Assembly: GCA_024229615.1 (NCBI GenBank)
Contig: JAAESG010000232.1
Coordinates: forward strand, 1-46,388
Source: Gammaproteobacteria bacterium
GTDB taxonomy: Bacteria > Pseudomonadota > Gammaproteobacteria > GCA-001735895
DNA: 46,388 nucleotides
Direction of reading: 5' to 3'
Below the pieces are notes generated by a model. It made no database searches, was not told where the DNA came from, and was given only the letters and a program-made list of their open reading frames with translations. Shown here piece after piece: positions 4,375 to 31,189 of the stretch. The position numbers and the translations under genes are program-made. Each line of letters opens with the position of its first letter. Position 1 is the stretch's first letter.

Positions 4375-4386
4375 GGAGATATGACT

Positions 4387-5201: not shown

Positions 5202-5204
5202 GAT

Positions 5205-7174: not shown

Positions 7175-7194
7175 GCCAGAGGTCGGTATTGATA

Positions 7195-10236: not shown

Positions 10237-10243
10237 TGATGTT

Positions 10244-10319
<76 letters not shown>

Positions 10320-10431
10320 ATTCAACCTGGCCAGGGAGTGATTTTATTGCCAGCCAGGGTATCGAGCAGAATATCGAGTCTCTTCGATTTCCCGGATAGT
10401 GGTCATAGCCGACCGTGAAAATCTCTAGATG

Positions 10432-10470
10432 CAAAAAAAATAGCCCGGACTGACAGGGTCCGGGCTATAG
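10432..10470 (-). terminator. Rho-independent terminator of the phasin gene
   Basis: A perfect 10-bp stem (TAGCCCGGAC with GTCCGGGCTA, 10441-10450 and 10458-10467) with a 7-base loop is followed, reading on the minus strand, by eight T residues (10433-10440). It lies about 70 bases after the phasin stop. Confidence 0.9.
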
Positions 10471-10537
10471 GTACTGTAATTTGCGATTTATCTGACTGCT
10501 AGACGATCCAGAGTGTAGCAATCGGATCAGACGCTGA

Positions 10538-10924: not shown

Positions 10925-10966
10925 GATAGTTTCCTCAATTAAATATAGAAATTGGTTTAAAATTCG

Positions 10967-10981
10967 TGCTGCAGTGCAGCA
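10967..10981. promoter_or_regulatory. PhaR-like operator, proximal site
   Basis: TGCTGCAGTGCAGCA is a near-perfect palindrome containing CTGC-N3-GCAG, the form described for PhaR sites in PHA-producing bacteria. It lies downstream of the -10 of the phasin promoter, where a bound repressor would block initiation. Confidence 0.6.
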
Positions 10982-10989
10982 ATATGAAT

Positions 10990-11018
10990 AATATAGAGGC
11001 TACAAGTGTCACTGTCAA
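10990..11018 (-). promoter_or_regulatory. Sigma70 promoter of the phasin gene
   Basis: On the minus strand, TTGACA (11013-11018) and TATATT (10990-10995) are separated by exactly 17 bases. This is the best sigma70 match seen in the window. Transcription would start near 10983, about 60 bases before the phasin ATG. Confidence 0.8.
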
Positions 11019-11024
11019 GAAATA

Positions 11025-11039
11025 TGTTGCAATGCAGCA
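11025..11039. promoter_or_regulatory. PhaR-like operator, distal site
   Basis: TGTTGCAATGCAGCA differs from the proximal site at two positions. The two centres are 58 bases apart and flank the promoter, a layout that would allow a repression loop. Confidence 0.55.
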
Positions 11040-12222: not shown

Positions 12223-12254
12223 TCTTCCGGCAGTTAGCAATGCATCTCTAAACA

Positions 12255-12290
12255 GGCCTGTCAGGGAAATCCCCGGCAGGCCATTTGTTT
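12255..12290 (+). terminator. Intercistronic hairpin after binding-protein gene 1
   Basis: A 12-bp stem with one mismatch (GGCCTGTCAGGG with CCCCGGCAGGCC, loop AAAT) is followed by ATTTGTTT. It probably lowers read-through or stabilises the upstream message, giving more binding protein than membrane components. Confidence 0.55.
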
Positions 12291-12318
12291 CATAATAAAA
12301 ATTATAGAGAGGAGTTCC

Positions 12319-13383: not shown

Positions 13384-15470
13384 GTAATGGGCGTGCATCA
13401 CAGCGGCCTTCAGCTTTAAAAACCGGGTTTGCTCCGTGGTTGTTTTTAGGCGTCGGCACGATCCTGTGCCTGCTGGCGGTAGATGTGGCGCCCTGGCTCA
13501 AGGAGTACCCGGAAAACTGGGTTATTCCCCTGTCTGATGGCATTACTGCGGCCGCCAGCTGGTTCGTGGATAACTTCAAGTGGGCATTTCGCGGCATTTC
13601 CTGGTTATTGAACTGGCCTATGTGGGGTGTGCAATCGGTACTACAGTGGTTACCGTGGCCGCTGACTATTGCGTTTTTTGCTATCTTCGCCCATCGCTAT
13701 GGAAGTTTCCGGCTGGCTCTGTTTACCAGCCTGGCTCTGGGCTACATGGCGGTTGTCGGATACTGGTCCGAATCCATGAACACCCTGGCCCTGGTGACCT
13801 TATCGGTACCGCTGTCGATTAGTATTGGCCTGGCTCTGGGTATTGTCGCCTTCAAGTCGGAAAGAACCGACCGGGTGATTCAGCCGACACTGGATCTGAT
13901 GCAAACCATACCGGCTTTTGCCTATCTGATACCGATTCTGTTCCTGTTCGGTTTTGGACCGGTAGTCGGGTTAATTTCGAGTGCTATTTTTGCCATTCCA
14001 CCCATGGTTCGCAATACCATCCTCGGCTTGAAGCAGGTCCCGCCAGCCGTACTCGAATCGGGCATCATGAGCGGTTGCACTCCACGCCAGCGTTTCTGGC
14101 AGGTAGAGCTGCCGACAGCGCTGCCGCAAATCATGATCGGGGTAAATCAATCCACCATGGCGGCACTTTCGATGGTCATCATCGCCGCCATTATCGGTGG
14201 TTTCGACGATATCGGCTGGGAGGTTCTGAGTACCATGCGCAAGGCGCAGTTTGGCAACAGCTTACTGGCCGGAATGGTGATCGCATTGCTGGCGATGATT
14301 CTGGATCGATTGTCCTGGGCACTGGCAAACCAGCAAAATGTTCCCAATCGACCCCGGGACAGCCTGATATCTCGTTACAAACACTCGTTTATTGCGCTAG
14401 CCGCATTCATCGTTATTACCATTTTGGCGCAATTGTTACCGGCATTCGCGACATATCCCGATGCCTGGGTTTTTTATCCGGCGGATTCTTTAAACGAATT
14501 CGTCAATTACATCGTGCGCAATTACTGGAGCGTGATGGAATCGATCAAGAACAATACGTTGTTCTTTATCATGTTACCGCTACGCAATGGACTCTCGGTC
14601 GCAATCAATCCTTTCACCTGGGGCTTCGAAGTGACCCCGGTGATGATCTGGGGGTATGCAATAGCCACCACCTTACTGACGTTGTGGCTTTATCTTCGCA
14701 AGAGCTGGCGCCATGCGACGGGTGCTGCGGTTTTTGCGCTATTCCTGTTTTTTGGCACCACTGGCACACCCTGGCCGGTATTCATCGGCATTACCACGCT
14801 AGTAGCCTACCAGGCGGGTGGTCGAAGGGTTGCGCTGTTCGCTTTTTTTTCGATGGCCTTCATGCTTATCAACGGTCTCTGGCACCCTGTTATGCTATCG
14901 GTTTACCTGTGCGGTACCGCGGTGTTACTGAGCATTATTTTGGGTGGTTTGATCGGCATCTGGGCGGCACATAACGATACCGTTTCCAGCATCATCAGAC
15001 CCATTAACGACACGCTGCAGACCATGCCTCAATTCGTCTTGTTAATTCCGGTACTGATGCTGTTCCGCGTGGGTGAATTTTCCGCATTGCTGGCGGTCAT
15101 TGCCTATGCCATCGTACCGCCGATTCGCTACTTTGAGCATGGACTACGCAGTGTGCCGACGGAAATCGTCGAGGCAGCCCGGCAGATGGGATGTACACCG
15201 CGTCAGATGTTGTTTGAAGTCAAATTACCGCTGGCGTTGCCGGTCATCATGCTCGGCCTTAACCAGGCCATTATGTATGGCCTCGGCATGCTGGTGATCG
15301 CTGCCATGGTCGGAACCCAGGGCCTGGGTCAGCAAATTTTCCTCGCACTCGGCAAGGCGGACATGGGACGGGGCATTGTCACCGGCCTGTCCATGGCCCT
15401 GGTAGCGATGGTCGCGGACCGTATCCTCCAGGCTTATAGCCGGAAGCGCCAGGAAGCCCTCGGCTTATGA
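13380..15470 (+). CDS. Fused double permease of betaine/TMAO-type ABC transporter, operon 1
   Basis: 696 residues with two binding-protein-dependent permease domains in one chain. Each half has its own EAA-type loop: GCTPRQRFW near residue 232 and GCTPRQMLF near residue 603. Single-domain ProW is about 350 residues, so this is a tandem fusion, as reported for TmoW and some choline/betaine permeases. About twelve or more hydrophobic segments are visible. An N-terminal stretch (about 35-95) with amphipathic WLLNWPMWG-like sequence resembles the periplasmic start of ProW. It is translationally coupled to the ATPase. Confidence 0.92.
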   Translation: MSNGRASQRPSALKTGFAPWLFLGVGTILCLLAVDVAPWLKEYPENWVIPLSDGITAAASWFVDNFKWAFRGISWLLNWPMWGVQSVLQWLPWPLTIAFFAIFAHRYGSFRLALFTSLALGYMAVVGYWSESMNTLALVTLSVPLSISIGLALGIVAFKSERTDRVIQPTLDLMQTIPAFAYLIPILFLFGFGPVVGLISSAIFAIPPMVRNTILGLKQVPPAVLESGIMSGCTPRQRFWQVELPTALPQIMIGVNQSTMAALSMVIIAAIIGGFDDIGWEVLSTMRKAQFGNSLLAGMVIALLAMILDRLSWALANQQNVPNRPRDSLISRYKHSFIALAAFIVITILAQLLPAFATYPDAWVFYPADSLNEFVNYIVRNYWSVMESIKNNTLFFIMLPLRNGLSVAINPFTWGFEVTPVMIWGYAIATTLLTLWLYLRKSWRHATGAAVFALFLFFGTTGTPWPVFIGITTLVAYQAGGRRVALFAFFSMAFMLINGLWHPVMLSVYLCGTAVLLSIILGGLIGIWAAHNDTVSSIIRPINDTLQTMPQFVLLIPVLMLFRVGEFSALLAVIAYAIVPPIRYFEHGLRSVPTEIVEAARQMGCTPRQMLFEVKLPLALPVIMLGLNQAIMYGLGMLVIAAMVGTQGLGQQIFLALGKADMGRGIVTGLSMALVAMVADRILQAYSRKRQEALGL

Positions 15471-15501
15471 CCGGGAAACGCTGAGACGGAGAAGCGCGGT
15501 C

Positions 15502-16320
15502 ATGCGTACCAGGCTCTTTCTGCTGGACCTTGGACGGATGCATATGCAACGTTCGGGTTTTCTCGGCGATCTCCCCAAAAATGATCCGATTGCCAGTGAA
15601 GTAGTGGAATTTCCAATTTCAGCCTGTCTTATTGATGGTCCGCAAGGGCGCATTCTGTATGACGCAGGATGTCATCCCGATGCGATGAAACCGAACGGTC
15701 GCTGGCCACAGGACTTTCAGTCACAGTTCCCGTGGTCGGGGGATGAAAGCTGTCATCTACCCAATCGTCTCGAACAACTCGGGCTCGGAGCCGACGACAT
15801 CGATCACGTGGTTTTGTCACACTTGCACTCTGATCATGCGGGTTGTGTGGAGTTCTTCAGTAATTCTCAGGTGATTGTGCACCGTAACGAATTCGATGCC
15901 GCGCTTCTGGCGCATAAACGAAGAGAGGACGATGGGTTTTATGCCTGGAGAGATATCGAGCATTGGCGAATGCCTGATCTGAACTGGCGTCTTGTTGAAG
16001 AGCAAGAAGAAGAATTGTCGATCACTGAACAAGTGACATTGCTTAACTGGGGCGCCGGGCATTCGGCCGGCATGCTGGGTCTTGAGTTATCATTGCCGGA
16101 AAGCGGTCAGGTCATACTCGCATCCGATGCTGTTTACTCCCTCGATAATCTGGGCCCTCCGTTGCGCCCAACTGGGTTTAACTTCTCGTCGGTCAAGGCC
16201 GCCCAAACGGTCGAGAAAATTCGAGTTCGCGCATTGAGTCACAACGCACAGATCTGGTGTGGCCATGATATGTCGCAATTCCTAAGCCTGCGATGCTCCA
16301 CCGATGGCTGGTACGAGTAA
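15502..16320 (+). CDS. Metallo-beta-lactamase-fold hydrolase, AHL-lactonase-like
   Basis: 272 residues with the dinuclear zinc motif SHLHSDHAG (H107, H109, D111, H112), followed by GHSAG, a SDAVYS aspartate and CGHD. The overall order matches the AiiA/AttM type of N-acyl-homoserine lactonases, but other small esterases and lactonases share it. It is 31 bases after the permease gene, so it is the last gene of ABC operon 1. It may hydrolyse an imported ester or lactone rather than a quorum signal; this is inference. No signal peptide is seen, so it acts in the cytoplasm. Confidence 0.85.
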   Translation: MRTRLFLLDLGRMHMQRSGFLGDLPKNDPIASEVVEFPISACLIDGPQGRILYDAGCHPDAMKPNGRWPQDFQSQFPWSGDESCHLPNRLEQLGLGADDIDHVVLSHLHSDHAGCVEFFSNSQVIVHRNEFDAALLAHKRREDDGFYAWRDIEHWRMPDLNWRLVEEQEEELSITEQVTLLNWGAGHSAGMLGLELSLPESGQVILASDAVYSLDNLGPPLRPTGFNFSSVKAAQTVEKIRVRALSHNAQIWCGHDMSQFLSLRCSTDGWYE

Positions 16321-18150: not shown

Positions 18151-19221
18151 CTACGGCCAGACAAAGGTTGCCAGAAATGATGGCGGCGCTAGCGAATCCG
18201 ATATATCGAATTCCTGCCAGTTATCTTGATCGATCATGTGGATTTTTGGGCCCGCGTGTTTGACGATATCGCGCCCTTCGAGGATACGCACAGCCTGGTC
18301 AATCGAGATACGACCCTGCATTACCGGGGCATCAGTCGGTGCCGCTAGAATGCGCCCACGCCGAATGCCGCGATAGACAGCGGGTGTGAAATAGGTTGAT
18401 ATGACTTTTATCTGATTCTGAAGATTGCGATTGCGCAGGGTGGCGATGGCCGCCTCGGCCATTAGTGCATTACCGACGATATAGTCAACCTGCGGGTGGC
18501 TCTCCAGCACTTCCTGTACTAATGTGCGCTGGATTTCTTTGCCGGTATCCCCCCATTTGGTGACTACAACCTCCACTGCGCTATTTTTTAAACCGAGCTT
18601 AAAGCCGGTTTCGATAAAGTCGACCCATCCCGCACCTTGTGGTCCGGGAAACCAGGCAACCGTTACCGGCTCACTTCCAGCCCGGTGTTTTTCGGCCAGG
18701 TATTCGCCGGTCACTCGCCCCATAGTCGTCCACGACACACCGGATTTGGCCGTAATTCCGCTGTCGTCGATATCGTTCACCGTCGCGAGGACAGGTATCT
18801 TTTCAGCAATCCTGGCAATGCTTTGATTGAGTCCTCGAAACGACACGGTACCGACGATCAAGGCATCGACGCCCTCGGCGGTGCACTGTTCAATCTGTTG
18901 CCGCTGGCGCTCAAGATTGGGATAACCACCTGCTTCAATGAGGGTGAATGCGATACCAAGCCGTCGCGCCTCCTGAACCATGCCGTAGTTAACATTTAAC
19001 CAATAAGCGTCTTTCAAATGTGGGTAGGCGATACAGAGATGCCAGACACGGCTAGCCTTTGTGGTGGGCTGATACTCAATAATCCTGCTGTCGCTGGAAT
19101 AGTCGAACGGTCTCGACCAGGTTTCCAGCTGCCATGTTTCAGCCCGGGCTAAGTTAGGTGTAACCATAGGTAACGTGATTAGAAGAGTAACCAGATACCA
19201 GGAATAAAGCGTGCTTTTCAA
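18151..19221 (-). CDS. torT: Periplasmic TMAO-sensing protein TorT
   Basis: 356 residues: a signal peptide (hydrophobic to about residue 25, ending NLARAE) and a periplasmic binding-protein type I fold of the TorT family. TorT binds TMAO and contacts the sensor domain of TorS, turning on the TorS/TorR phosphorelay. Recognisable parts include WHLCIAYPHLKDAYWL and the DALIVGTVSF and GWVDFIETG segments. The start codon is TTG at 19221. It is divergent from torS, as in E. coli, with only about 75 bases between them. Confidence 0.9.
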   Translation of the reverse strand: MKSTLYSWYLVTLLITLPMVTPNLARAETWQLETWSRPFDYSSDSRIIEYQPTTKASRVWHLCIAYPHLKDAYWLNVNYGMVQEARRLGIAFTLIEAGGYPNLERQRQQIEQCTAEGVDALIVGTVSFRGLNQSIARIAEKIPVLATVNDIDDSGITAKSGVSWTTMGRVTGEYLAEKHRAGSEPVTVAWFPGPQGAGWVDFIETGFKLGLKNSAVEVVVTKWGDTGKEIQRTLVQEVLESHPQVDYIVGNALMAEAAIATLRNRNLQNQIKVISTYFTPAVYRGIRRGRILAAPTDAPVMQGRISIDQAVRILEGRDIVKHAGPKIHMIDQDNWQEFDISDSLAPPSFLATFVWP

Positions 19222-19297
19222 CGTTTTAATGTCATAAAACCAAATCCTGAAATATTGTACGCTTGCATTTTATGACTGCAAGGCGCAGCATTTTGTG

Positions 19298-22240
19298 ATG
19301 CGAAAGCTTGGCATTGCGGCAAAATTATATCTGGCATTTGGCAGCATTTTCTTGCTGGCGGTAGTGGCGTCTTCGATTGGATGGAAGGGGTTTCAGCGGG
19401 TAACCGATTCACAATACTCGGTTATCGATCAGGCGATTCCCGGTCTCAGACATGCGCACCAACTGTCGGCGCTGAATGCGTCAATCGCGGCTGCTGCCCA
19501 ACAACTGCTTCGTGCCAGGAATGAAACTGAACGATTGAAAATCAGTTCTGTCCTGTTCTCCGAGGTTCGTCAGGTCAACAGCCTTCTCGATGATTTCCAG
19601 CAGCAGGGTTTCTCATTGGGCTCGTTACAATCTTTACGTGAAACAGTAGGTATTATTGAAAACAAGCTTCATCAGCAGGATGAACTGGTGCGGCAAAGAA
19701 TTCGGCAGCAGGCGCGTTTTACTCAGCTTGCCGCAGGGCTAATTGCAACTACCGAAGAGTTAAATGATCTGGCCGACTCTCTGGTCGCCAACGCGGCGGC
19801 AACGACCACGGCTATAACCTCGAATCTGTATGATCTGGTCGAGGATAATGCCAGTAACCAGCAGCTTTACAATGTCTTTGATCGCCTGGTTGAAGTCGAT
19901 CTCGATGCCATGGAACGTATGTACGAACTACGCCTGCGCAGCGCTAATTTGAACGGGCTGTTTAATCGAGTCGCGAAGGAATCTGAATTGACGGAGCTCG
20001 ATAAATTACGCAGACGCACCGCGGAAACTATTTCAATTCTGAAACGTCGAGTGAGTGAAATAAACGATCCTCAGCGACGTCAGAAAGCAACGGGCTTGCT
20101 CGGTGCAATGGAGGTCGACAATGGGCCGATATACGTTTACGGTATTTTTGAGACGCGCGTTTCGTTATTGCAGATTGGCGAATCACTGACCCAGCTTTCG
20201 CTCGAAACTGCCGCAGCCTCGCAGACGTTAAACGGTATCGTCAATGAACTGAATGCTGCTGGTGGTACTTTAATCAACCAGGTTTCGACCACGGCGAAAG
20301 AGTCACTCGACATCAGTCGCCAATTGTTTGGTGGAATATCGATAATATTACTGCTGGTCGCTGCAGCCATATTGTGGTGGTTTATCAAACGCAATGTGGT
20401 TCGGCGCCTGTTGTCACTGCAGTCGGCTACGCATTCAATTACACAGGGTGATTATAATGTCGACATTATCGTCGAAGGTCACGATGAATTGACGGATATG
20501 GGCAGGGCGCTGCGTGGTTTCCGCAATAATGCGATTCACAACCGTAAGCTGGACGAAGAATTACGCGAACACAAGGCGCATCTCGAAGAACTGGTCGAAA
20601 AGCGTTCCGAGCAACTGCGTGAAACCAACCAGATGTTGTCCGAGGAAGTACAAAACCACACGGTCGCGCGAGTAAAGGCTGAGCAGGCGAGCGAGGCGAA
20701 AACAGCATTCCTCGCCACCATGAGCCACGAATTGCGCACGCCACTAAGCGGCGCTCTGGGAACATTGCGATTACTATCCGACACAGCGCTCCAGGCGCAA
20801 CAATCGGAGTATGTGAATATCATCAATGCGGCGAATGCGAGCCTGCTCGACATCGTCAATGACATATTAGGCTATTCACAGCTTGAAGCGGGCAGGCTGA
20901 ATATTGAAAATCGACGCTTCGAGCTCAGTGAGCTTATCAATAATGTCATCGGGTTAATGAGGGTTCCGGTCAATGAAAAAAATAACTGCCTGATACTAGA
21001 AATGGAGCCTGTAAACGGATATTCGTACGGATTCCTGGGGGACTCCGGCAAGTTACATCAAATTCTCATCAACCTGATAAGCAATGCCAATAAATTTACC
21101 GATAACGGCTCGATCACCCTCAGGATTATTGGTAATCACGATGCGCAGGAGGATGTCGTAAATTTGCAATTCGCGGTCATCGACACTGGCATTGGCATCG
21201 CTAAGGATAAACAGGAAGAGATTTTTCAGGCTTTTACCCAGGTCGATGCCAGCAGCGCCAGACGCTATGGGGGCATCGGTCTTGGTCTGGCAATATGCGA
21301 ACGCCTGGTTAATGCTATGGGTGGCAAAATATTGTTGGAAAGCAAGATCGGTGAAGGTACCACCATTGGATTTAATATTGATGCCGAAGTCTGCAGGGCG
21401 GTTTCATCGACACAGCCAAAAACACAAAAGGTAACCGACATCAGCGATAGAATTAAGGTGTTGATGGTAGAGGACGATGCCACCAATAGCATGGTTACCA
21501 GCAACTATTTGCTACATCTTGGACATCAGGTGATTGCCACGCAAAGCGGTGAAGAGGCCTTATCCTTCCTCGATGAAGGTGGTATGGCGCTCGTACTGCT
21601 CGATATCAGCTTGCCGGGCATCGATGGTTTGACCATTCTGAATTACATTCGCACCCATTCCGACAAAACGATTGTGAATCTACCCGTGATCGCGATGTCA
21701 GCGCATGTATTCAGCGAAGAAGTCGATTACTATCTGTGCGCGGGTATGAATGGATTTCTGGGTAAACCATTTACGCTGGAGGATCTCGAGCACGCAATTA
21801 GTCAGGCCATGGGTGGCCACGAAGTGATCATCACCAACACCTACCAGCCGAGTGAACAGAGCGAGGTTAACCCGTTCGATACATCTGTAGTTGAAAACGA
21901 TATAAGCCGGCTGGGGTTGGATAGTGTCGAGAAGCTGGCAGCACTGTTTTTTCAATCCACAGAGCAGCTAAAGCTCGAGTTGATTGAGGCGATGGAGCAG
22001 GGTAATTTCGAAACACTGGCTAAACTGGCACACAGGATGAATGGTGCGGCAGGTAATTTCGGGTTACAAAGATTGTGTGCTCTGTTAGCCAGAATTGAAA
22101 CCCAGGCGAACAATGGCACAAAATTGACAGCCGCGTTAATAGAGCAATTTCAGGTTGAATTTGAAGAGGCTATCGCGTCCCTCAGCAGCTACCTGTCAAA
22201 ACAAAAGCTATCCCCAGCAAAGCTATCCGTCTCACCTTAA
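19298..22240 (+). CDS. torS: Hybrid sensor histidine kinase TorS
   Basis: 980 residues from ATG 19298 (a GTG one codon earlier is possible). Order: transmembrane segment (about 10-28), long helical periplasmic sensor (to about 345), second transmembrane segment (about 346-366), HAMP, a coiled linker, HisKA with NxxHELRTP-type box (H477 in TMSHELRTPLSG), HATPase with N, G1 and G2 boxes (NLISNANKF, DTGIGI, GIGLGLAI), receiver domain with VLLDISLPG, and a C-terminal Hpt domain with LAHRMNGAAGN. This is the four-step phosphorelay layout of E. coli TorS. It is convergent with torR and divergent from torT. Confidence 0.93.
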   Translation: MRKLGIAAKLYLAFGSIFLLAVVASSIGWKGFQRVTDSQYSVIDQAIPGLRHAHQLSALNASIAAAAQQLLRARNETERLKISSVLFSEVRQVNSLLDDFQQQGFSLGSLQSLRETVGIIENKLHQQDELVRQRIRQQARFTQLAAGLIATTEELNDLADSLVANAAATTTAITSNLYDLVEDNASNQQLYNVFDRLVEVDLDAMERMYELRLRSANLNGLFNRVAKESELTELDKLRRRTAETISILKRRVSEINDPQRRQKATGLLGAMEVDNGPIYVYGIFETRVSLLQIGESLTQLSLETAAASQTLNGIVNELNAAGGTLINQVSTTAKESLDISRQLFGGISIILLLVAAAILWWFIKRNVVRRLLSLQSATHSITQGDYNVDIIVEGHDELTDMGRALRGFRNNAIHNRKLDEELREHKAHLEELVEKRSEQLRETNQMLSEEVQNHTVARVKAEQASEAKTAFLATMSHELRTPLSGALGTLRLLSDTALQAQQSEYVNIINAANASLLDIVNDILGYSQLEAGRLNIENRRFELSELINNVIGLMRVPVNEKNNCLILEMEPVNGYSYGFLGDSGKLHQILINLISNANKFTDNGSITLRIIGNHDAQEDVVNLQFAVIDTGIGIAKDKQEEIFQAFTQVDASSARRYGGIGLGLAICERLVNAMGGKILLESKIGEGTTIGFNIDAEVCRAVSSTQPKTQKVTDISDRIKVLMVEDDATNSMVTSNYLLHLGHQVIATQSGEEALSFLDEGGMALVLLDISLPGIDGLTILNYIRTHSDKTIVNLPVIAMSAHVFSEEVDYYLCAGMNGFLGKPFTLEDLEHAISQAMGGHEVIITNTYQPSEQSEVNPFDTSVVENDISRLGLDSVEKLAALFFQSTEQLKLELIEAMEQGNFETLAKLAHRMNGAAGNFGLQRLCALLARIETQANNGTKLTAALIEQFQVEFEEAIASLSSYLSKQKLSPAKLSVSP

Positions 22241-22258
22241 GCGCTTTTCAGAGGCCAG

Positions 22259-22975
22259 CTATAAAACCTCACTGGCAAACAAATAGCCTTCACCATGTAC
22301 CGTCAGGATTATCTGTGGTGCGTGGCTATCCTGCTCGATCTTATTGCGCAACCGCAGAACAAGCACATCGATGGTGCGCTCATTGGGAGACCATACGCGG
22401 TGGGTCACCTTTTCCATCAACCATTCTCGATGCAGTGTTTTACCGGGATGCTCGAGGAAAGTCACCAGTAACTCGAATTCGCCGCGTGTCAATGACAGCT
22501 TATCCTGTGTATTGGACGACAGGCAACGACGAGATAAATCCAGCGTCCAACCTGAAAATGACTTGCTTCTCTGATTTTGGTGTCTGCTCTGATCAGACTG
22601 CTTGCGACGAATGAGGTTTTTAACCCGCGCCAACAACTCACGCGGGTTAAACGGTTTGGTGACGTAATCATCGGCACCGATTTCGAGGCCGATAATTCGA
22701 TCGATCTCATCGCTGCGCGCCGATACCAGGATAATACCGACGTCGGTCTTTTCAGAAAGCTCTCGGGCGAGTTGCAGACCATCTTTACCCGGTAAATTTA
22801 TATCCAGCATCACCACATCAATTGCCGACTCTGCAATTAGACGGTTTATGCCTTCGCCGTCTTCGGATTGGCTGACTCGGTAATTCTCAGATTCGAAATA
22901 GGCAGCGATACGCGCACGAGTCACCTCGTCGTCTTCGACAATCAATACATGGTGAGTGCTACTGGTATCGGTCAC
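22259..22975 (-). CDS. torR: Response regulator TorR, OmpR/PhoB family
   Basis: 238 residues: a receiver domain with the acidic pair in VEDDE, phospho-accepting D in VVMLDINLPG and TKPF lysine, then a winged-helix DNA-binding domain (about 140-235; RGEFELLVTFLEHPG and the ERTIDVLVLRLRNKIE recognition region). It starts with GTG at 22975. In E. coli, TorR activates the divergently transcribed torCAD operon and represses its own gene. Here the gene divergent from torR is a periplasmic binding protein of a quaternary-amine ABC transporter, so that operon is the likely main target. Confidence 0.9.
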   Translation of the reverse strand: MTDTSSTHHVLIVEDDEVTRARIAAYFESENYRVSQSEDGEGINRLIAESAIDVVMLDINLPGKDGLQLARELSEKTDVGIILVSARSDEIDRIIGLEIGADDYVTKPFNPRELLARVKNLIRRKQSDQSRHQNQRSKSFSGWTLDLSRRCLSSNTQDKLSLTRGEFELLVTFLEHPGKTLHREWLMEKVTHRVWSPNERTIDVLVLRLRNKIEQDSHAPQIILTVHGEGYLFASEVL

Positions 22976-23097
22976 GGTTTGTCGTGTTTATATTTTTGAT
23001 ACGCCCGCTAACGGGAAGTCTGAAATGGTATCAGATCGGCTGACCGTGGACTATCTGTCCTTTATCAACTCGGTAACATGAGTAACTCCGGGTAAAT

Positions 23098-23148
23098 AGA
23101 TGAACAGAATGTTAATAGTTGTTAACCAAATGATATTTCTGTTAGTAA
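23098..23148. promoter_or_regulatory. Tor-box-like decamer array between torR and ABC operon 2
   Basis: Minus strand CTGTTCATCT (23098-23107) matches the E. coli Tor box CTGTTCATAT at nine of ten bases. One base further begin four contiguous plus-strand decamers: ATGTTAATAG, TTGTTAACCA, AATGATATTT, CTGTTAGTAA (23109-23148). Three share TGTTA at exact 10- or 20-base spacing, so sites lie on one face of the helix. The array ends just upstream of the -35 position of the promoter at 23178. Binding by TorR is inferred. Confidence 0.6.
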
Positions 23149-23177
23149 TTTGAAATCCATGGTTTTTAATCACCCCA

Positions 23178-23183
23178 TATAAT
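23178..23183 (+). promoter_or_regulatory. -10 element of ABC operon 2 (TATAAT)
   Basis: A perfect TATAAT with no recognisable -35 at 16-18 bases, as expected for an activator-dependent promoter. Transcription would start near 23190, placing the decamer array at about -92 to -42. A second possible promoter is TTGGCC (23215-23220) with TATATA 16 bases later. Confidence 0.5.
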
Positions 23184-23322
23184 TATTCGTGTTACTGAGG
23201 CAGCTGAAAGCCTGTTGGCCAGTAATCATTGCAAAATATATAAGAATTGACGTTAAGGCCGATCGCATTCCCAGCGCGACAGCCAAACTTGTAAATAAGT
23301 GTAAATTCCTGAGGAGGGTATT

Positions 23323-24306
23323 ATGAGTCTTAAAAGATCTAGTTATTTCAGGGCATTGCTTGTCGCCATGTTTGGCGCCCTGTTTGTCGTTTCAGGCACT
23401 TCAATTGCCGCCGACAGCAACAAGCCGATCAAAATTCCGATCAAGAACTGGTCCAGTCAAATTGTCATGGCTCACGTGATCGGGGGCATGTTCGAGAGCA
23501 TGGGCAACAAGGTCGAATATGTTCCGGTCGATAACCAGGCCAGCTTTGAAGCGGTCCGCGTGGGGGATCTTACAATTTTGCATGAAGTCTGGCAGTCCAC
23601 CATGCAAAATACCTACTACAACGCGATGGAGAAAGGCGGCTTGATTGACGCCGGTACTCATGCAGCCGCAACTCTGGAAGAAATGGGTGTGCCTAACTGG
23701 GTCATCGATAAAGGTCTTTGCCCGGGTCTCCCTAAATGGGAAGCGCTGAAAGATTGCCAGGCTGCCTTCGCGACCCCGGATTCCGGTGGTAAAGGTCGTT
23801 GGCTCGAAGGCCCGCAAAGTTGGCACGGCGACGTTATGCCGAATCGCGTCAAGGGACTGGGTCTCGATGACAAATGGGTCGTCAAATTTGCCGGTGCGGC
23901 CGACGCACTCTGGGCTGAATTGAAAGCGGCTGAAAAAGAAGGTCGTGGCACCATCATTTTTAACTGGTCGCCTAACTTTACCGATGCTTCCGGTTTTACC
24001 TTTATTGAATTTCCACCCTATTACGACGGCTGCCGCATAGCCGACGGTGGTACCCTGGAAACTACGGGTTGCGGTTCACCTCCTGGCTGGTTGAAAAAGG
24101 GCGCCAACTACAAGTTCCCGAAAACACATCCCAAGGCTTATGCCGCGTTTTCGAAGCTTTCATTTACCACGCCACAAATTGGTCAAATGGCAGCATTGGT
24201 TGATGTCGATGGGTTGACTCATGCCGATGCTGGTAAGAAGTGGCTGGCCGACAATGAGGCCGTGTGGAAGCCCTGGACAGAATCAGTACTGGGCGCCGGA
24301 AACTAA
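23323..24306 (+). CDS. OpuAC-family binding protein, operon 2 (TmoX-like candidate)
   Basis: 327 residues, signal peptide ending near SIAA-D (residues 30-31), then an OpuAC-type binding domain. Tryptophans W43 (KNWSS), W90 (HEVW), W126 (PNWVI) and W215 (FNWSPNF) are spaced as needed for an aromatic box around a trimethylated group. This resembles the layout of TMAO-binding TmoX and betaine-binding proteins. The GAGGAGGG ribosome binding site is strong. The gene is divergent from torR with Tor-box-like repeats between them, so TMAO is the favoured ligand; betaine or choline cannot be excluded. It shares only the general family with the operon 1 protein. Confidence 0.88.
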   Translation: MSLKRSSYFRALLVAMFGALFVVSGTSIAADSNKPIKIPIKNWSSQIVMAHVIGGMFESMGNKVEYVPVDNQASFEAVRVGDLTILHEVWQSTMQNTYYNAMEKGGLIDAGTHAAATLEEMGVPNWVIDKGLCPGLPKWEALKDCQAAFATPDSGGKGRWLEGPQSWHGDVMPNRVKGLGLDDKWVVKFAGAADALWAELKAAEKEGRGTIIFNWSPNFTDASGFTFIEFPPYYDGCRIADGGTLETTGCGSPPGWLKKGANYKFPKTHPKAYAAFSKLSFTTPQIGQMAALVDVDGLTHADAGKKWLADNEAVWKPWTESVLGAGN

Positions 24307-24355
24307 GTAGCACCTCGATTAGATGAATCTTTCATCTTCGAGATAATCAGTAACA

Positions 24356-24405
24356 CCTGGTTCCCCCCGGTTTGGGGGGAACCTTGTTTTGGGGAACAGG
24401 TTTTT
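24356..24405 (+). terminator. Terminator or attenuator after binding-protein gene 2
   Basis: A perfect 10-bp stem GGTTCCCCCC/GGGGGGAACC (24359-24383) is followed by TTGTTTT. Its 5' arm can instead pair as CCTGGTTCCCC with GGGGAACAGG (24391-24400), which is followed directly by TTTTT. The two pairings exclude each other. At the least this limits read-through into the ATPase gene, giving excess binding protein. Confidence 0.7.
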
Positions 24406-24602
24406 GTTCGATCGACACCAGAAATCCAGCCCGAATCTTCGGCGTTGTTATTGCCGATCCACTACAGATCCTGAAATGAACCCCAGGTTTTTGGGCAACG
24501 TGATAAACTCCGGGGAAAAAATTTGATGCCGTCTTCATATTATTCTGTGACGTGATACAGGACCGGGCATTACAAACCTAAACCGTTGAATGGGGGGCTA
24601 CT

Positions 24603-25673
24603 ATGTCTTCGGAAAGTGACCAAGCCGTTAATGAAAAGGCAATCATCAAATGTGAATCTGTGTACAAGATTTTTGGTGATAACGCACAGAAAGTGCTTGC
24701 AAGCTCAAAAGGCAATGTTAATGCCGAATCATTCCTCGATGCGGGCTGTGTAGTCGGCGTCAACAATGCCTCTTTCGAAGTGTATGAAGGCGAATTGTTG
24801 ATCTTGATGGGATTGTCCGGTTCAGGCAAGTCGACTTTACTTCGTTGTATTTCCAGGTTAACGGATCCCACGGCAGGCAACATTTATATCGAAGGACAGG
24901 ACTTGCTGGCCATGAACAGCAAGGAGCTCATCGAACTTCGTCGCAGCAAGATGGGTATGGTGTTTCAAAGTTTCGGCTTACTGCCACATAAAACTGTATT
25001 GGAAAATATTGCTTTCCCATTACAGGTAAAAGGACTAAGCACCCAGGAAAGTATCAAGCGGGCCATGGAAATGGCCGAGCTGGTCGCACTCGGTGGGCGC
25101 GAGAATTATTTTCCAAGGCAATTGTCTGGTGGCCAGCAGCAGCGTGTCGGAATAGCCCGCTCGTTAGCGGTCGAGCCCGATATCTGGTTTCTGGACGAAC
25201 CATTTTCTGCGCTGGATCCTTTAATCCGCAAGGAGATGCAGGACGAATTTATTCGATTACGGCAGGTTTTGAACAAGACCATCCTGTTTGTCACACATGA
25301 TTTTGATGAAGCATTGCGCCTGGCTGATCGTATTGCAATCATGAAAGATGGTGTCATTGAGCAGTTGGATACGCCAACCAATATCGTGCTTAATCCAGCC
25401 ACGGAATACGTGCGTAAATTTACCGAAGAAGTACCACGGGAGAAGGTGCTAAAGATCGAATCGGTCATGGACCCTTACAGTAGTTCAGAGGAGTTTAGTG
25501 ATCTGAAAGTTTCCAAAGATGCGATTGTTGAAACGGTTGCGGAATCCATACTGAGCCAGGAAAAAGCAGTTGCGGTTGTTGATGCTAATAACGAAATTGT
25601 AGGCGCTTTACATCCGTCTCACGTGATCAATGTGTTGTTTGGTGGCAAATCCGACAATAACAACCAGGACTGA
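24603..25673 (+). CDS. Betaine/TMAO-type ABC transporter ATPase, operon 2
   Basis: 356 residues with intact Walker A GLSGSGKST (70-78), LSGGQQQRVG signature, Walker B IWFLDE and the H-loop in VTHDF. A C-terminal CBS-like region (about 285-350, with AVAVVDANNEIVGAL) follows, as in the operon 1 ATPase; the two proteins are clear paralogues over the nucleotide-binding domain. It lies about 300 bases after the binding-protein gene, beyond a terminator-like structure, and ten bases before the permease gene. Function: energising uptake of a small quaternary amine, most likely TMAO given the adjacent torR. Confidence 0.92.
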   Translation: MSSESDQAVNEKAIIKCESVYKIFGDNAQKVLASSKGNVNAESFLDAGCVVGVNNASFEVYEGELLILMGLSGSGKSTLLRCISRLTDPTAGNIYIEGQDLLAMNSKELIELRRSKMGMVFQSFGLLPHKTVLENIAFPLQVKGLSTQESIKRAMEMAELVALGGRENYFPRQLSGGQQQRVGIARSLAVEPDIWFLDEPFSALDPLIRKEMQDEFIRLRQVLNKTILFVTHDFDEALRLADRIAIMKDGVIEQLDTPTNIVLNPATEYVRKFTEEVPREKVLKIESVMDPYSSSEEFSDLKVSKDAIVETVAESILSQEKAVAVVDANNEIVGALHPSHVINVLFGGKSDNNNQD

Positions 25674-25683
25674 TTCCCAAATC

Positions 25684-27744
25684 ATGAATATTCCAGATAA
25701 AAATTCGAAGGCTGTTCAGTTCGCCATTTTGCTAGCCGTGTTTTTCATTCTGTGTTTTCTAATCGGCCCGTCAGAATCCAATTACCTGTGGCGATTACCT
25801 CCGCTTCTCAAGGAATTGCCAACCGTTATCAATGACTCCGTTCAGTTTGTGATGTTCGACTGGTTTCCGATCGAGGTCTATGATCCTGATATTGAAGACT
25901 TCGAAGAAAAGCCCTTATTCAGTGAAATAACCAGGACTATTTCGAGTTCCTTTCTTTTTGTCATTACTTTCATTCGAGAAATTTTTCTCGGCGGCACCAA
26001 GACGATCGTTGCTTTTACCGGTTGGGATTTTATCAGTGAAAACTCATGGGCGGTTTGGCCGGCACTGCCATGGACAGTGATTGCCGGTTGGGCCATGGTT
26101 CTTGGATATAAGCTTCAAGGCAAGGGCCTTGCCATCCTGGCAGCGTTTTCAACAGGGTATATCGGTATTTTCGGTCAATGGGAGCCTTCCATGCAAACGC
26201 TCTCATTTGTGTTGATTGCAGCGCCGGTTTCAGTTGTTTTCGGTCTCGCTCTCGGCATCTGGGGACATAAAAACAAATGGGTGGAAGCGGCATTGAATCC
26301 CCTGCTCAATATTGCTCAAACCATGCCTCACTATTCTTACCTGGTGCCGGTAATCGTATTATTCGGAGTTGGTGATCAGGCTGCCGCGATTGCAACCATA
26401 TTCTTTGCCACCCCGCCGATGGTTCGCCTGACGATGCTGGGGCTGAAGAATATCTCCCCGGATATTGTCGATGCCGGCCTGATGAATGGCTGTAATCGAT
26501 TCCAGATTCTTTTCAGAGTACAGATTCCGACCGCGAGGCGCGATATTCTGATTGGCGTCAACCAGGTGGTCATGCAGTGTCTGGCGATGACCGTAATCGC
26601 ATCGTTCATCGGTGCGCAGGGACTCGGTTCGAACCTGATGATTGCATTGAATTCACTCAAGATAGGATCTGGACTCGAAATAGGGCTATGCATTGTATTA
26701 ATAGCAGTACTGCTGGATAAATTGTCTCTGGCCTGGGCGAACAAGCAGACCGATTATTTCGCCGATCTCAGTTTTATCAAACGTTATCAGTTCTCGTTAA
26801 TTTGCGCCGCGATCTTCGTTGCCGGAGTTATTTTCGCCTACATCGGCCGCTTTATGTTCGACGAGGACTTCAATTATTTGTACATCGTTCCGCACAACAA
26901 GGGTATTACCACGGCACCGTTCTGGCAGGCGGCGGTTGACTGGATTTGGGATACCTTCTTTTTTACATTGAAAGGTTTTAACGAGTTTCTGATCGTAAGT
27001 ATATTGGTACCGATGAAGGAGGCTTACCTGGGTATGCCCGTAGTCGCGACATTCTTACTGGTGATGGGTACTGCCTATATCCTTGCTGGCCTTAGATCGG
27101 CACTTATCGTCTGTGGGTTTTTGTTGTTCATTGCATTTTCTGAATTCTGGGACAGGGCCCTGATTACTGCCTATATGACCTCTTTTTCAGTGATTGTCGC
27201 CGCAGTTGTAGGTGTCACGGTTGGATCTTTGTGCGCGCAAAATGCGTTTGCCAGTAAAGTGATTCTGCTGCTGTGCGACTTCTTCCAGACTTTTCCGTCG
27301 TTTATCTACCTGATCCCGGTGATCATGCTATTCGGGATCACCGATACTTCGGTCATTATTGCCGCGATCGTGTATGCGCTGGTGCCGGCGATTCGATATA
27401 CCGTGGAAGGACTGCGTAACGTACCGGCAGTCTTGCATGATGCCGGTTCGATGATGGGTGTTTCGCGATTTCAACGATGGATTTCGATCGAATTTCCACT
27501 TGCTTTTCCGCACATCATGCTGGGTGTGAACCAGACTGTCATTTTCGCGTTGTTCATGGTCATCATTGGTGCATTCATCGGCACCACCGATCTGGGTCAA
27601 CTCATACTGAAGGCCATCTCGGACCCCAGAGGTACCGGTATAGGAATTACCCTGGGATTGTGTGTCGCCTTTATCGGACTCGCGGCAGATCAAATTCTAC
27701 GCACCTGGGCAAGCGAACGTAAAAAGGCACTGGGAGTGGCATAG
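25684..27744 (+). CDS. Fused double permease of ABC operon 2 (TmoW-like candidate)
   Basis: 686 residues from ATG 25684. Two permease domains in tandem, each with an EAA-type loop (GCNRFQILF in the first half; GVSRFQRWI in the second). It has an insert between the N-terminal hydrophobic segment and the first permease domain, rich in acidic and aromatic residues (about 35-90), and another long non-membrane stretch between the halves. It is paralogous to the operon 1 permease. The reported TMAO permease TmoW is a fused protein of this size. An upstream in-frame ATG at 25630 lies inside the ATPase gene and was not chosen. Confidence 0.9.
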   Translation: MNIPDKNSKAVQFAILLAVFFILCFLIGPSESNYLWRLPPLLKELPTVINDSVQFVMFDWFPIEVYDPDIEDFEEKPLFSEITRTISSSFLFVITFIREIFLGGTKTIVAFTGWDFISENSWAVWPALPWTVIAGWAMVLGYKLQGKGLAILAAFSTGYIGIFGQWEPSMQTLSFVLIAAPVSVVFGLALGIWGHKNKWVEAALNPLLNIAQTMPHYSYLVPVIVLFGVGDQAAAIATIFFATPPMVRLTMLGLKNISPDIVDAGLMNGCNRFQILFRVQIPTARRDILIGVNQVVMQCLAMTVIASFIGAQGLGSNLMIALNSLKIGSGLEIGLCIVLIAVLLDKLSLAWANKQTDYFADLSFIKRYQFSLICAAIFVAGVIFAYIGRFMFDEDFNYLYIVPHNKGITTAPFWQAAVDWIWDTFFFTLKGFNEFLIVSILVPMKEAYLGMPVVATFLLVMGTAYILAGLRSALIVCGFLLFIAFSEFWDRALITAYMTSFSVIVAAVVGVTVGSLCAQNAFASKVILLLCDFFQTFPSFIYLIPVIMLFGITDTSVIIAAIVYALVPAIRYTVEGLRNVPAVLHDAGSMMGVSRFQRWISIEFPLAFPHIMLGVNQTVIFALFMVIIGAFIGTTDLGQLILKAISDPRGTGIGITLGLCVAFIGLAADQILRTWASERKKALGVA

Positions 27745-27783
27745 CCATGCAGATCGAACGACTGTAAAAAGGGTATAAAACTA

Positions 27784-28239
27784 ATGAAGAGTATTTTAGT
27801 CGCAACCGATGCCTCGGCAGCTTCGAACCGCGCATTAAAAATGGCAATGCAATTCGCCGCACAACTCGACGCTGAATTGCTCATCATTCACGTTATTCGT
27901 GATATGCAGATACCTTTTGAAATCAAGGAAATACCAGAACTGGAATCCAACAAGTTTGAAGCCTTCAACGATGCTCGTGAGGAAGTCATGCGCAAGATCG
28001 CTGAGACCGTGTTAAGAACGGCTAAGGAAAAAGCGGAAAAGGCCGGCGCTACCATGGTTAAAACTGCGATCGGAACCGGTGATCCAGCAACCAGTATTCT
28101 CGGCTTTGCCAAACGACGGAAAGTGGACATGATCGTCGTAGGAACCCGGGGTTTGGGCAAATTGAAGGGAACCATTTTGGGCAGTGTCTCGCGAAAAATT
28201 GCCAACAATGCTGAGACTAGTTGCCTGATCGTCAGATAG
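27784..28239 (+). CDS. Universal stress protein, UspA family
   Basis: 151 residues, single Usp domain. ILVATDAS at the start and the ATP-binding G2x-G9x-GS motif (VGTRGLGKLKGTILGSVSRK, about 120-139) are intact, so it is of the ATP-binding class. It lies 39 bases after the permease gene and is probably the last gene of ABC operon 2. UspA-like proteins accompany several osmolyte transporters (for example TeaD with the ectoine transporter TeaABC), where they modulate transport; a similar role here is inference. Confidence 0.9.
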   Translation: MKSILVATDASAASNRALKMAMQFAAQLDAELLIIHVIRDMQIPFEIKEIPELESNKFEAFNDAREEVMRKIAETVLRTAKEKAEKAGATMVKTAIGTGDPATSILGFAKRRKVDMIVVGTRGLGKLKGTILGSVSRKIANNAETSCLIVR

Positions 28240-28381
28240 TCGAACGAAAGGAAAGCAGCCCAAAGAAGAGGAGGTAAGTGGCAGATTCAAATTATTTGCA
28301 TTTAGTCTTGTCAGATCTACCCCTTTGCTAGTAATCAGGATTTCTAAACACCTCTTTTTCAATTGGTTCTTTAAAAACCAC

Positions 28382-28500
28382 CGTCCTCAATAATTTTGAT
28401 GGGGGATTCGCGATTTCAGTATTGGATTTTGAGCGAATTGCCACTCGCTTTTCCGCACCCAATAATATGATCATGCCAGGCTGTTCAGTTCATTGCAGCC
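28382..28500 (+). pseudogene. Degraded fragment of an ABC permease gene
   Basis: Bases near 28398-28465 align closely with the second EAA loop of the operon 2 permease (27460-27525): both contain TTCGCGATTTCA and CGCTTTTCCGCAC or CTTTTCCGCAC. One frame reads SRFQYWI and ELPLAFPH where the intact gene reads SRFQRWI and EFPLAFPH. The match decays on either side. It is a leftover of a duplicated or third permease gene. Confidence 0.65.
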
Positions 28501-28713
28501 GCTTCCAGTCCAGGTTAATGATTTGGTGCAAATTGCCGAAATCACTATGACCGGTAGCTGGTATTTTTGAATTAAATTTACAGTTTCATATCAATCGATT
28601 TTGCGCGCTCAAAATAACCATGAAATAGACTATCGTTTGTCCTGTTAAGACTGATCAATAGTGGCTTCAGGGAGTTGTCTAAAAGTTTTCAAGGTGACCC
28701 TCCAAACCAGAAA

Positions 28714-28733
28714 AGTTGGCCTATACTCAATAG
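28714..28733 (+). promoter_or_regulatory. Shared upstream motif, copy 1
   Basis: AGTTGGCCTATACTCAATAG lies 175 bases before the first signalling gene. The same sequence minus one G occurs at 42157-42175 before the first ABC_sub_bind gene. TATACT inside it could act as a -10. Confidence 0.55.
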
Positions 28734-28907
28734 AAGGCATATTAAATATTTAAAATTTTTGTTACTCAACACTTGTAGCGCGTGGATTTTTTACGTTTTA
28801 CGTCTATATCTTGTATTTCCAAGCGTCCTGCGGAAGTTGATGCTGAATTAAATTTCACTAATTCCTGGTAGTTAGTCGAATTAGGTGAGTATTAAAAGGA
28901 AAATTTG

Positions 28908-31169
28908 ATGAAAGTAGTAGACCCTGTCAACTTGAACTCCGTCGATCCAGCGTCAAGCGTTCCGGATGAGCAGTGTGATAGTGCAATCGAACTAAAGTCA
29001 GCTAACACCTCGAAGAAGCACCGGGAAAGTATGAGCACGCATCATCGTACAACAGCTCGGTCCTCCTCTCTAGTACTGGTGGCTGATGACGATCCTATGA
29101 TTCGATTGTTGGCACATCAAACCCTCACCGATAAATCCTTTGAGGTTCTACAGGCAGAAGATGGCAGGCACGCGCTTGAACTTTTCAAGGCTGAGGAACC
29201 GGATCTGGTTTTGTGCGATGTGATGATGCCGGAAATTGATGGTTTCGAATTATGCACATCGATTCGGGCGATGAAGCAGGGTGAGCATGTACCCATAGTC
29301 ATGTTGACGGGACTCAATGATGCGAAATCCATCAAGCAGGCTTTTTCTATTGGTGCCACCGATTTTTGCGAAAAGCCGGTCAACTGGGAATTGCTTCCAT
29401 ACAAACTCGACTACATTTTGCGTGCTTCATCAACTTTCAGCGAGTTGCAGGTAAGCGAAGAACGTTACAGCCTGGTCTCTCGTGGTGCCAACGATGGACT
29501 CTGGGACTGGGACTATACAGATGACCGGGTGTATTTTTCACCCAGATGGAAATTCATGCTCGGGTTTACCGAAGATGCCATTGGCCACGATCCCCTGGAA
29601 TGGATTGATCGAATTCATGCTGATGACAGGTTCCGCGTGATTAACGATCTCCATGCACACAAAACGGAACAGACCTCGCACTTTGAATGCGAGTACCGGA
29701 TTAAAAATGCAGAAGGAGATTATCGCTGGATGGTGTGCAGGGGTCTTGCGGTCAGGGGTGAGGACGGTGTTGCCTATAGAATGATCGGTTCGCAATCCGA
29801 TATCAACGATCGGAAACAGGCGGAGGAAAAGCTGGTATTCGATGCGGTTCACGATGCGCTCACCGGTTTGCCCAATCGTATATTGTTTCTCGACAGGCTC
29901 AACCACTGCATAGAACTATCCTCCCGGCGCAAAAATTTCAGTTTCGCCATACTGTACCTGGATTTGAACCGATTCAAGATCATCAATGACAGTTTGGGGC
30001 ACTTGCTTGGGGATCAGTTGTTGGTGGAAATCGGATCACGAATCAAGCTGGTTATTCGCAAAGGTGACACCCTGTCACGACTCGGAGGCGATGAGTTTGT
30101 GATTCTGTGTGAAGATATCGAAGACATAACTGTGGCGACAAACCTGGCCGATCGTATTCACGAGAAATTATTAAGACCGATCGACCTGGATGGACAAAAG
30201 GTCGTTGTCGGCTGCAGCATAGGAATTACAGAAAGCAGCATAGGGTACCAGCGCCCCGAGGATATGCTGCGTGATGCAGATGCCGCAATGTACCGGGCAA
30301 AAGTCCGCACGGGTTCACGTTATGAAATCTTTGACATCTCTATGCACAAGAAGGCTATGAATGTCTTGCGGATTGAATCCGATCTTAGGCTTGCCCTGGA
30401 GAAGAAGCAATTTGAAGTTCACTATCAACCAATCGTCGAAATTGAAGAGGATGTGGTGTCGGGATTCGAAGCTCTGGTTCGATGGAATCATCCGAAGCAA
30501 GGAATGCTCATTCCTGAGGAATTTCTTGAAGTTGCAATTGAATCCCGATTGATTGTGCCGCTTGGCCGATGGGTATTGAAACAGGCATGCAGGCAGATGC
30601 AGACGTGGAAGGAACATTGGGAGGAGGCAAAAGATTGGACCATTAGTGTCAATTTGTCTGCACCAGAGCTGGCCCAACCGGATCTGGTCGGTGCCATGAA
30701 CGAGATTATTGATGAGAGTGGATTAGACCCCAATTTTCTGAAACTCGAAATCACTGAGACTTCACTTGTTAAAAATAGTAGTCACGCACTTGAAACGATG
30801 AATGCCCTGCGCGAGCGAGGCATACATTTGTCAATCGATGATTTCGGCACTGGATACTCCTCGTTTAGCTATCTCCATCAATTTCCTTTCGATGAATTAA
30901 AAATTGATCGAACCTTTATCAGTGAATTAGATAATCGCGCAGACAAGCAACAGATCGTCAATGCAATTGTTTCCCTGGCACACAATCTGGGGATGACGGT
31001 AGTCGCTGAGGGTAGCGCATCAGGTGCTATTTACGAGAATCTACGAGGTGCTTCCTGTGAGTATGCTCAGGGATTTTCGATCATGCAACCAAAGAGCGCG
31101 AGTGAGATTACGCGATCTATAGCGGTCGATGTTGATCGCACAGAGATTACCAGTTTTAGCACGTCTTAA
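28908..31169 (+). CDS. REC-PAS-GGDEF-EAL signalling protein 1
   Basis: 753 residues from ATG 28908, preceded by AAAAGGA. Order: receiver domain (about 50-170; VADDDP, LCDVMMPEIDG), PAS domain (about 185-305), GGDEF domain with intact GGDEF and an upstream RKGD inhibitory site, then EAL domain with [16 protein letters not shown] and KIDRTF intact. The late VET-EQ motif is replaced by ASGAIY. It should be able to make c-di-GMP; phosphodiesterase activity may be weakened by the changed end. The receiver suggests control by the nearby hybrid kinase. It is the first gene of the cassette, 21 bases before its paralogue. Confidence 0.9.
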   Translation: MKVVDPVNLNSVDPASSVPDEQCDSAIELKSANTSKKHRESMSTHHRTTARSSSLVLVADDDPMIRLLAHQTLTDKSFEVLQAEDGRHALELFKAEEPDLVLCDVMMPEIDGFELCTSIRAMKQGEHVPIVMLTGLNDAKSIKQAFSIGATDFCEKPVNWELLPYKLDYILRASSTFSELQVSEERYSLVSRGANDGLWDWDYTDDRVYFSPRWKFMLGFTEDAIGHDPLEWIDRIHADDRFRVINDLHAHKTEQTSHFECEYRIKNAEGDYRWMVCRGLAVRGEDGVAYRMIGSQSDINDRKQAEEKLVFDAVHDALTGLPNRILFLDRLNHCIELSSRRKNFSFAILYLDLNRFKIINDSLGHLLGDQLLVEIGSRIKLVIRKGDTLSRLGGDEFVILCEDIEDITVATNLADRIHEKLLRPIDLDGQKVVVGCSIGITESSIGYQRPEDMLRDADAAMYRAKVRTGSRYEIFDISMHKKAMNVLRIESDLRLALEKKQFEVHYQPIVEIEEDVVSGFEALVRWNHPKQGMLIPEEFLEVAIESRLIVPLGRWVLKQACRQMQTWKEHWEEAKDWTISVNLSAPELAQPDLVGAMNEIIDESGLDPNFLKLEITETSLVKNSSHALETMNALRERGIHLSIDDFGTGYSSFSYLHQFPFDELKIDRTFISELDNRADKQQIVNAIVSLAHNLGMTVVAEGSASGAIYENLRGASCEYAQGFSIMQPKSASEITRSIAVDVDRTEITSFSTS

Positions 31170-31189
31170 TCTGCGATGGAATTTTTTGT

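Follow-up and report, generated by a model that had tools for sequence, protein, structure and literature searches.

TorTSR genes paired with a TmoXVW-type importer point to an assimilatory TMAO-response system in Gammaproteobacteria and Rhodobacterales

In the genome of a gammaproteobacterium, genes for the TorTSR sensory system lie beside an operon for an ABC importer of the TmoXVW type, and the same pairing recurs across two bacterial classes. TMAO, a compound of fish whose respiration E. coli switches on through TorTSR, is plentiful in the sea as a source of nitrogen and serves animals as an osmolyte. It is very probable that the locus represents an assimilatory Tor module, in which TorTSR senses TMAO and activates the tmoXVW-uspA importer operon, and the import is demethylated by Tdm. 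According to this scheme TorT would bind periplasmic TMAO and present it to TorS, which would pass phosphate on to TorR along a His, Asp and Hpt-His relay. Once phosphorylated, TorR would occupy four tor boxes in the torR-tmoX interval and activate tmoXVW-uspA, so that the importer would be made mainly when TMAO is present. Tdm would demethylate the imported TMAO, and the nitrogen and one-carbon units would be processed by methylamine (N-methylglutamate) enzymes whose genes lie elsewhere in the genome.

The window analysed here is a stretch of 46,388 nucleotides (contig JAAESG010000232.1), in which the open reading frames named in an earlier note were all found where it had placed them. The three regulatory genes were assigned by NCBI curated family cut-offs, each of which was exceeded. 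They are torT (18151 to 19221, minus strand; TIGR02955, 352 bits against 310), encoding a periplasmic sensor protein predicted to bind TMAO; torS (19295 to 22240, plus strand; TIGR02956, 744 bits against 676.5), encoding a hybrid sensor kinase; and torR (22259 to 22975, minus strand; NF008034, 290.8 bits against 275), encoding a response regulator of the OmpR family. TorS comprises the TorS sensor (PF21689), HAMP, HisKA, HATPase, receiver and Hpt domains, with the phosphorelay residues H478, D770 and H913 all intact, and D58 of TorR is conserved. The arrangement had been described as E. coli-like, which holds in that all three genes are present, the sensor genes are divergent and torR diverges from its putative target, but the torT/torS pair is inverted: the order in MG1655 is torS(-) torT(+) torR(-) torCAD(+), whereas in the window it is torT(-) torS(+) torR(-) tmo(+). 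The target also differs, being a reductase and a cytochrome in E. coli and an importer here. Profile and Pfam matches bear out the earlier reading of the genes that diverge from torR as an operon for a binding protein of the OpuAC type, its ATPase, a fused permease and a UspA protein, without torCAD. No homologues of TorA, TorC or TorD were found in the window, nor were any of these the target in the tmo-linked loci checked.

The importer operon, on the plus strand, opens with a tmoX-like gene for a binding protein (binding protein 2; 23323 to 24306). This is followed by a gene for the ProV-type ATPase of a tmo ABC transporter (24603 to 25673; TIGR01186, 336 bits against 326.6), in which a Pfam scan found no CBS domain, and by one for a fused double permease with two BPD_transp_1 stretches (25684 to 27744). 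The permease reading frame spans 25630 to 27744, its likely start at 25684 being judged by relatives of 686-690 amino acids. Thus the ATPase and fused double permease share an operon with the binding protein, as in TmoXVW. A gene for a UspA-family protein (27784 to 28239; PF00582) closes the operon, and is found at the same position in several congeners. The interval between the tmoX and ATPase genes contains a hairpin of 11 pairs (24359 to 24383, plus strand), possibly a differential-expression element that would let the binding protein be made in excess.

Sequence and predicted fold both place binding protein 2 closest to TmoX. Its nearest solved relative is TmoX of Ruegeria pomeroyi (4xz6; 272.7 bits, E = 4.2e-80; 46% identity), compared with 42 bits for the dimethylsulfoniopropionate (DMSP) protein DmpX and about 25 or less for betaine proteins. 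An AlphaFold2 model (mean pLDDT 83) matches TmoX with TMAO at E = 1.4e-37, the next protein following at about 1e-18. TmoX is therefore the nearest by both measures when TmoX, ChoX, OpuAC and ProX are compared, in keeping with the earlier suggestion of a TMAO importer, and at the sequence level the protein falls outside the betaine and choline proteins. Identities as a DmpX (DMSP), choline or betaine protein were rejected on the same ranking. The TMAO pocket of TmoX is lined by W55, W102, F106, E131, W177, F220 and W222 (PMC8918994). Six of these seven residues are kept in binding protein 2, the F106 position being occupied by Met, while all seven are present in the congeners G001, G002 and G022 and in all Rhodobacterales compared. 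This substitution is the chief caution about the ligand of the window protein, as replacement of the equivalent residue in Pelagibacter TmoX (Phe89Ala) severely reduced TMAO binding (PMC8918994).

It is conceivable, then, that sensor and importer are mismatched, with TorTSR sensing TMAO and the importer carrying glycine betaine, choline, DMSP or a methylamine. The ligands of the OpuAC family are broad, Phe106 is Met in the window lineage, and the orthologue is preceded, in some congeners, by a GcvT-like gene with distant similarity to DMSP demethylase. Such a mismatch nevertheless appears improbable given that TmoX is a far better match than any of DmpX, ChoX, ProX and OpuAC, that binding protein 2 (24% identical to DmpX) has the Phe of TmoX F220 where DmpX has its diagnostic Tyr, and that tdm is linked to the cluster in three relatives (G023, G022 and L052).

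The distribution of tdm and associated genes makes uptake followed by demethylation the likely fate of TMAO. In G023 and G022, tdm lies near torT with one to three small genes between them (NF053776, 1181 and 1209 bits against 1100), and in G023 a single contig carries tmm (827 bits against 675), folD, amt, tdm, usp, torTSR and tmoXVW; the assimilation regulon of this genome possibly also includes amt and folD. In L052 the N-terminal half of tdm (451 bits, profile positions 12-363) is directly 3' of the permease gene on the same strand, where the contig end cuts the gene. The window genome encodes tdm on another contig (1225 bits against 1100), with a GntR regulator upstream, together with N-methylglutamate-pathway-like genes (glutamine-synthetase-III-like and MgsC-like) that are 93-94% identical to those beside the G022 cluster. 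Neither tmm nor a TorA above its cut-off was found in the window genome, the best TorA-family match being a BisC-like enzyme. Because tdm and N-methylglutamate-pathway-like genes are present without recognisable TorA or tmm, TMAO is probably a nutrient for this organism. Among the congeners, carriage of TorTSR was not significantly associated with absence of tmm (Fisher p = 0.07).

The BisC-like enzyme, an S/N-oxide reductase, could be taken to mean that a respiratory system persists, with TorR mainly controlling TMAO reduction elsewhere in the genome and its adjacency to tmo being incidental. As a candidate for torCAD outside the window it is the only one, and it scores below the TIGR00509, NF011682 and TIGR02164 cut-offs, with neither torC nor torD beside it. 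Together with the conservation of torTSR-tmo adjacency across two classes, this makes a residual respiratory role exceedingly improbable.

The earlier note had proposed uptake of TMAO as an osmolyte or nutrient. The importer is indeed TmoX-like in silico, and of the two uses nutrition is favoured, because tdm is present in the genome and linked in relatives and the ATPase has no detectable CBS domain. A role for accumulated TMAO in protection against pressure or as a compatible solute, and not in nutrition, would fit with the UspA gene that closes the operon, with the presence of osmoprotectant importers in the same transporter family and with the occurrence of the same cluster in the animal-associated Olavius algarvensis Gamma 3 symbiont. 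It is, however, unlikely in view of the tdm and N-methylglutamate-pathway-like genes in the genome and the physical linkage of tdm in relatives. The lack of a CBS domain in the tmo ATPase, where the ATPase of the neighbouring operon has one, tips the balance slightly towards nutrition and away from osmoprotection. One use does not preclude the other.

This neighbouring operon (11275 to 16320, plus strand) had been viewed as a second, similar one. It is real and OpuAC-type, encoding binding protein 1, the CBS-containing ATPase, a fused permease and an AhlS-like lactonase, but the ATPase and the lactonase end set it apart, no tor-box array precedes it and nothing ties it to TorR; it is placed outside the proposed regulon. 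Binding protein 1 is 34% identical to TmoX, with the cage W W L E W M W, and the last gene encodes a protein of the metallo-beta-lactamase fold (308 bits, under the AhlS cut-off of 475). The substrate may be a quaternary-amine lactone or ester.

In 23 loci examined it is the importer operon that diverges from torR; these are the window, six congeners, 15 loci from Rhodobacterales and L052, a further gammaproteobacterial bin. Seven genomes within the genus of the window (G000, G001, G002, G009, G023, G011 and G022) have the order torT-torS-torR-binding protein-ATPase-permease, which is split across contigs in G011 and G022; of these genomes, G001 is the Olavius algarvensis Gamma 3 endosymbiont (L047). 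The same order occurs in 11 Leisingera/Rhodobacteraceae loci and in Leisingera thetidis, Paracoccus aminophilus, P. yeei and Gemmobacter fulvus, and those Rhodobacterales binding proteins that were compared share 72-80% identity with characterised TmoX and have all seven pocket residues. As the arrangement is repeated in six congeners, 15 Rhodobacterales loci and L052, it is not due to chance. Close orthologues of the binding protein are also present in congeners without TorTSR, and the importer must therefore be under other regulators elsewhere. Several of these orthologues adjoin a GcvT-like gene, and genes of this kind, encoding 360-395 amino acids, precede tmoX-like operons at L128:38-1222, L130:11057-12241, L129:8047-9234, L127:6414-7496 and L135:4651-5829. 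Their products are 27-30% identical to part of Tdm and fall below the DMSP demethylase cut-off, and are possibly another methyl-group transfer enzyme. In G009, one contig (L138, C592) is 98.5-100% identical to window positions 23740-31800, the importer-to-GGDEF region, and the genome also has its own copy of this region on C503, at 84-88% identity; C592 is likely to be a mis-binned contig or a recent transfer.

Two TorTSR loci, from Azospirillum and L053, have no link to tmo. The Azospirillum torTSR adjoins a gene for a TorA-like molybdenum enzyme; in Azospirillum ramasamyi the order is torT-torR-torS, and a single CTGTTCATAC lies between torT and the molybdenum enzyme gene (L161:8824-9006). 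In L053, torTSR (6065-11026) has as its divergent neighbour a gene (4109-5782) for a predicted secreted protein of 557 amino acids that has no match in Pfam or NCBIfam, and which may be a target of TorR distinct from both torCAD and tmo. A maximum-likelihood tree of TorS places the tmo-linked proteins and L053 in one group (support 85/88), separate from the Azospirillum sequences and from those of Vibrio/E. coli. Because the tmo-linked TorS proteins group together (with L053), the pairing represents a conserved assimilatory branch and not a local accident. The earlier description of TorTSR as rewired to an importer is thus upheld by sequence as regards the pairing itself; the tree is unrooted and is silent on the direction of change between respiration and assimilation.

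Similarity of TorT as a whole is no proof of TMAO sensing, because TorT-like proteins that serve as binding proteins of sugar-type ABC importers, beside PxpA/carboxyltransferase genes, are 46% identical to window TorT, nearer than Vibrio TorT at 41%. It might be argued from this that window TorT senses a ligand other than TMAO, as these close relatives presumably do. The residues D71, Y73, W74, Y100, W164 and Y277 (window numbering), which we take to be the TMAO contacts, are common to all TorS-linked TorT proteins examined, those of E. coli and Vibrio included, whereas the ABC-type proteins have Phe or Pro at W164. With TorS and TorR also present, and a TMAO-type importer as the target, a different TorT ligand is very unlikely. 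Genes labelled "TorT" on plasmids of Sulfitobacter, Ruegeria TM1040, Diaphorobacter and Agrobacterium (L163-L166) share operons with genes for PxpA, biotin carboxylase and carboxyltransferase, and no TorS or TorR was found near any of the four (L163, L164, L165 and L166). These labels are probably misannotations, the proteins being ABC binding proteins that are perhaps pyroglutamate-related.

The published E. coli tor boxes are CTGTTCATAT (boxes 1, 2 and 4) and CCGTTCATCC (box 3) (PMC9239176), spaced 10, 21 and 22 bp in the torR-torC interval of MG1655. The window has a predicted array of nearly identical spacing, 10/20/22, on the plus strand: box 1, ATGTTAATAG (23109 to 23118), box 2, TTGTTAACCA (23119 to 23128), and box 3, CTGTTAGTAA (23139 to 23148), are identified by array spacing and a leave-one-out matrix, while box 4, GGTTTTTAAT (23161 to 23170), is degenerate, yet strongly conserved among congeners. 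Three of the four fall within 23098-23148, the region singled out in the earlier note. Box 4 is followed by a -10 element, TATAAT (23178 to 23183, plus strand), that is kept in most congeners. It has no consensus -35, and a sigma-70-type match is absent among the matches listed, as expected of an activator-dependent promoter.

The torR-tmoX intervals were scored with an E. coli-only model (four CTGTTCATAT boxes at 10/(20 or 21)/22), and 300 dinucleotide shuffles of each served as the comparison. All seven Rhodobacterales promoters tested gave 24-31 of 40 matches at exactly 10/21/22, a result reached by 0 of 300 shuffles in each case. The window promoter gave 23/40 at 10/20/22, equalled in 5 of 300 shuffles, and four of the seven congeneric promoters were indistinct from shuffles under this model, support for them coming from mutual conservation. 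As the E. coli-only model is overly stringent for promoters of the gamma lineage, in which the box core is TGTTAA (TGTTAAC) rather than the TGTTCA of E. coli, a leave-one-out matrix was added. When trained on the six other congeners, it ranks 23109 first in the window, at 31.7 bits against 6.8 bits for the best unrelated site. Across the 1.15 Mb of DNA scanned, sites above 20 bits were confined to tmoX promoters (training ones included) and one untrained site, in the amt/tdm interval of G023. No tor-box array above shuffles was found upstream of the second operon, between torT and torS or after uspA, and no tor boxes were found upstream of tdm in the window genome on its 3.7-kb contig. The recognition helix of TorR has Leu in the window lineage and Arg in most others, a change that may explain the altered box core.

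The sensor and the importer are each well known, and their conserved combination is, provisionally, new. The window system shares with torSTR-torCAD of E. coli the three Tor protein families, the divergent sensor pair, the divergence of torR from its target and the four-box operator, but with torT and torS swapped, a different box core and an importer in place of the reductase and cytochrome. With TmoXVW (TmoXWV) of R. pomeroyi and SAR11 it shares an OpuAC-type binding protein, in which six of the seven TMAO-cage residues are kept, as well as an ATPase, a fused double permease and the link to the tdm pathway; relative to the R. pomeroyi protein (46% identical), the window protein differs by F106M. 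The TMA cluster of R. pomeroyi is reported to be governed by TmaR (AraC family), which is unresponsive to TMAO itself, and TmoR (GntR family), which responds mainly to dimethylamine, and TorTSR is unmentioned (PMC13390433). A dedicated TMAO sensor for the importer is thus undescribed in this model organism, and it is TorTSR that is apparently wired to TmoXVW here. On plasmid pAMI5 of Paracoccus aminophilus, torTSR-tmo has an identical gene order and 10/21/22 boxes, and the binding protein is 72% identical to TmoX of DSS-3. On the basis of annotation, TorS of this plasmid has been assigned control of an operon for TMAO reductase (PMC3925955), whereas the adjacent operon encodes an importer. A literature search of papers available without subscription found none that joined TorTSR with TmoX or TMAO demethylase.

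Collectively, these comparisons incline us to regard TorTSR as a portable TMAO-response module and not primarily a respiration switch. On balance, a four-box geometry of 10/20-21/22 seems to have been kept from Enterobacteria to Rhodobacterales while the function under control varies, being respiration in some bacteria and assimilation (uptake, tdm) in others. If so, many annotations of "TMAO reductase regulator" in aerobic bacteria would mark a catabolic regulon, and the window lineage would have shifted in the pocket (F106M), the box core (TGTTAA) and the TorR recognition-helix residue (Arg to Leu). TorT, TorS and TorR are named for TMAO reductase, yet the torR-divergent operon is an importer throughout the tmo-linked loci, and their annotation merits correction accordingly. 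The predicted operator is also present in the culturable Leisingera and Paracoccus.

Two further groups of genes were observed in the window. At 42237-44729 there are two similar tandem periplasmic binding proteins, the first with an ABC_sub_bind domain (PF04392), with no transporter genes in view beside them; upstream are an MFS-type protein and a protein of 445 amino acids without a family match. On the same strand as the tmo operon and following it, positions 28905-36708 encode a pair of response regulators whose output is of the GGDEF-EAL type, together with a dCache hybrid kinase (receiver, Hpt); these possibly form a separate cyclic-di-GMP sensory cluster.
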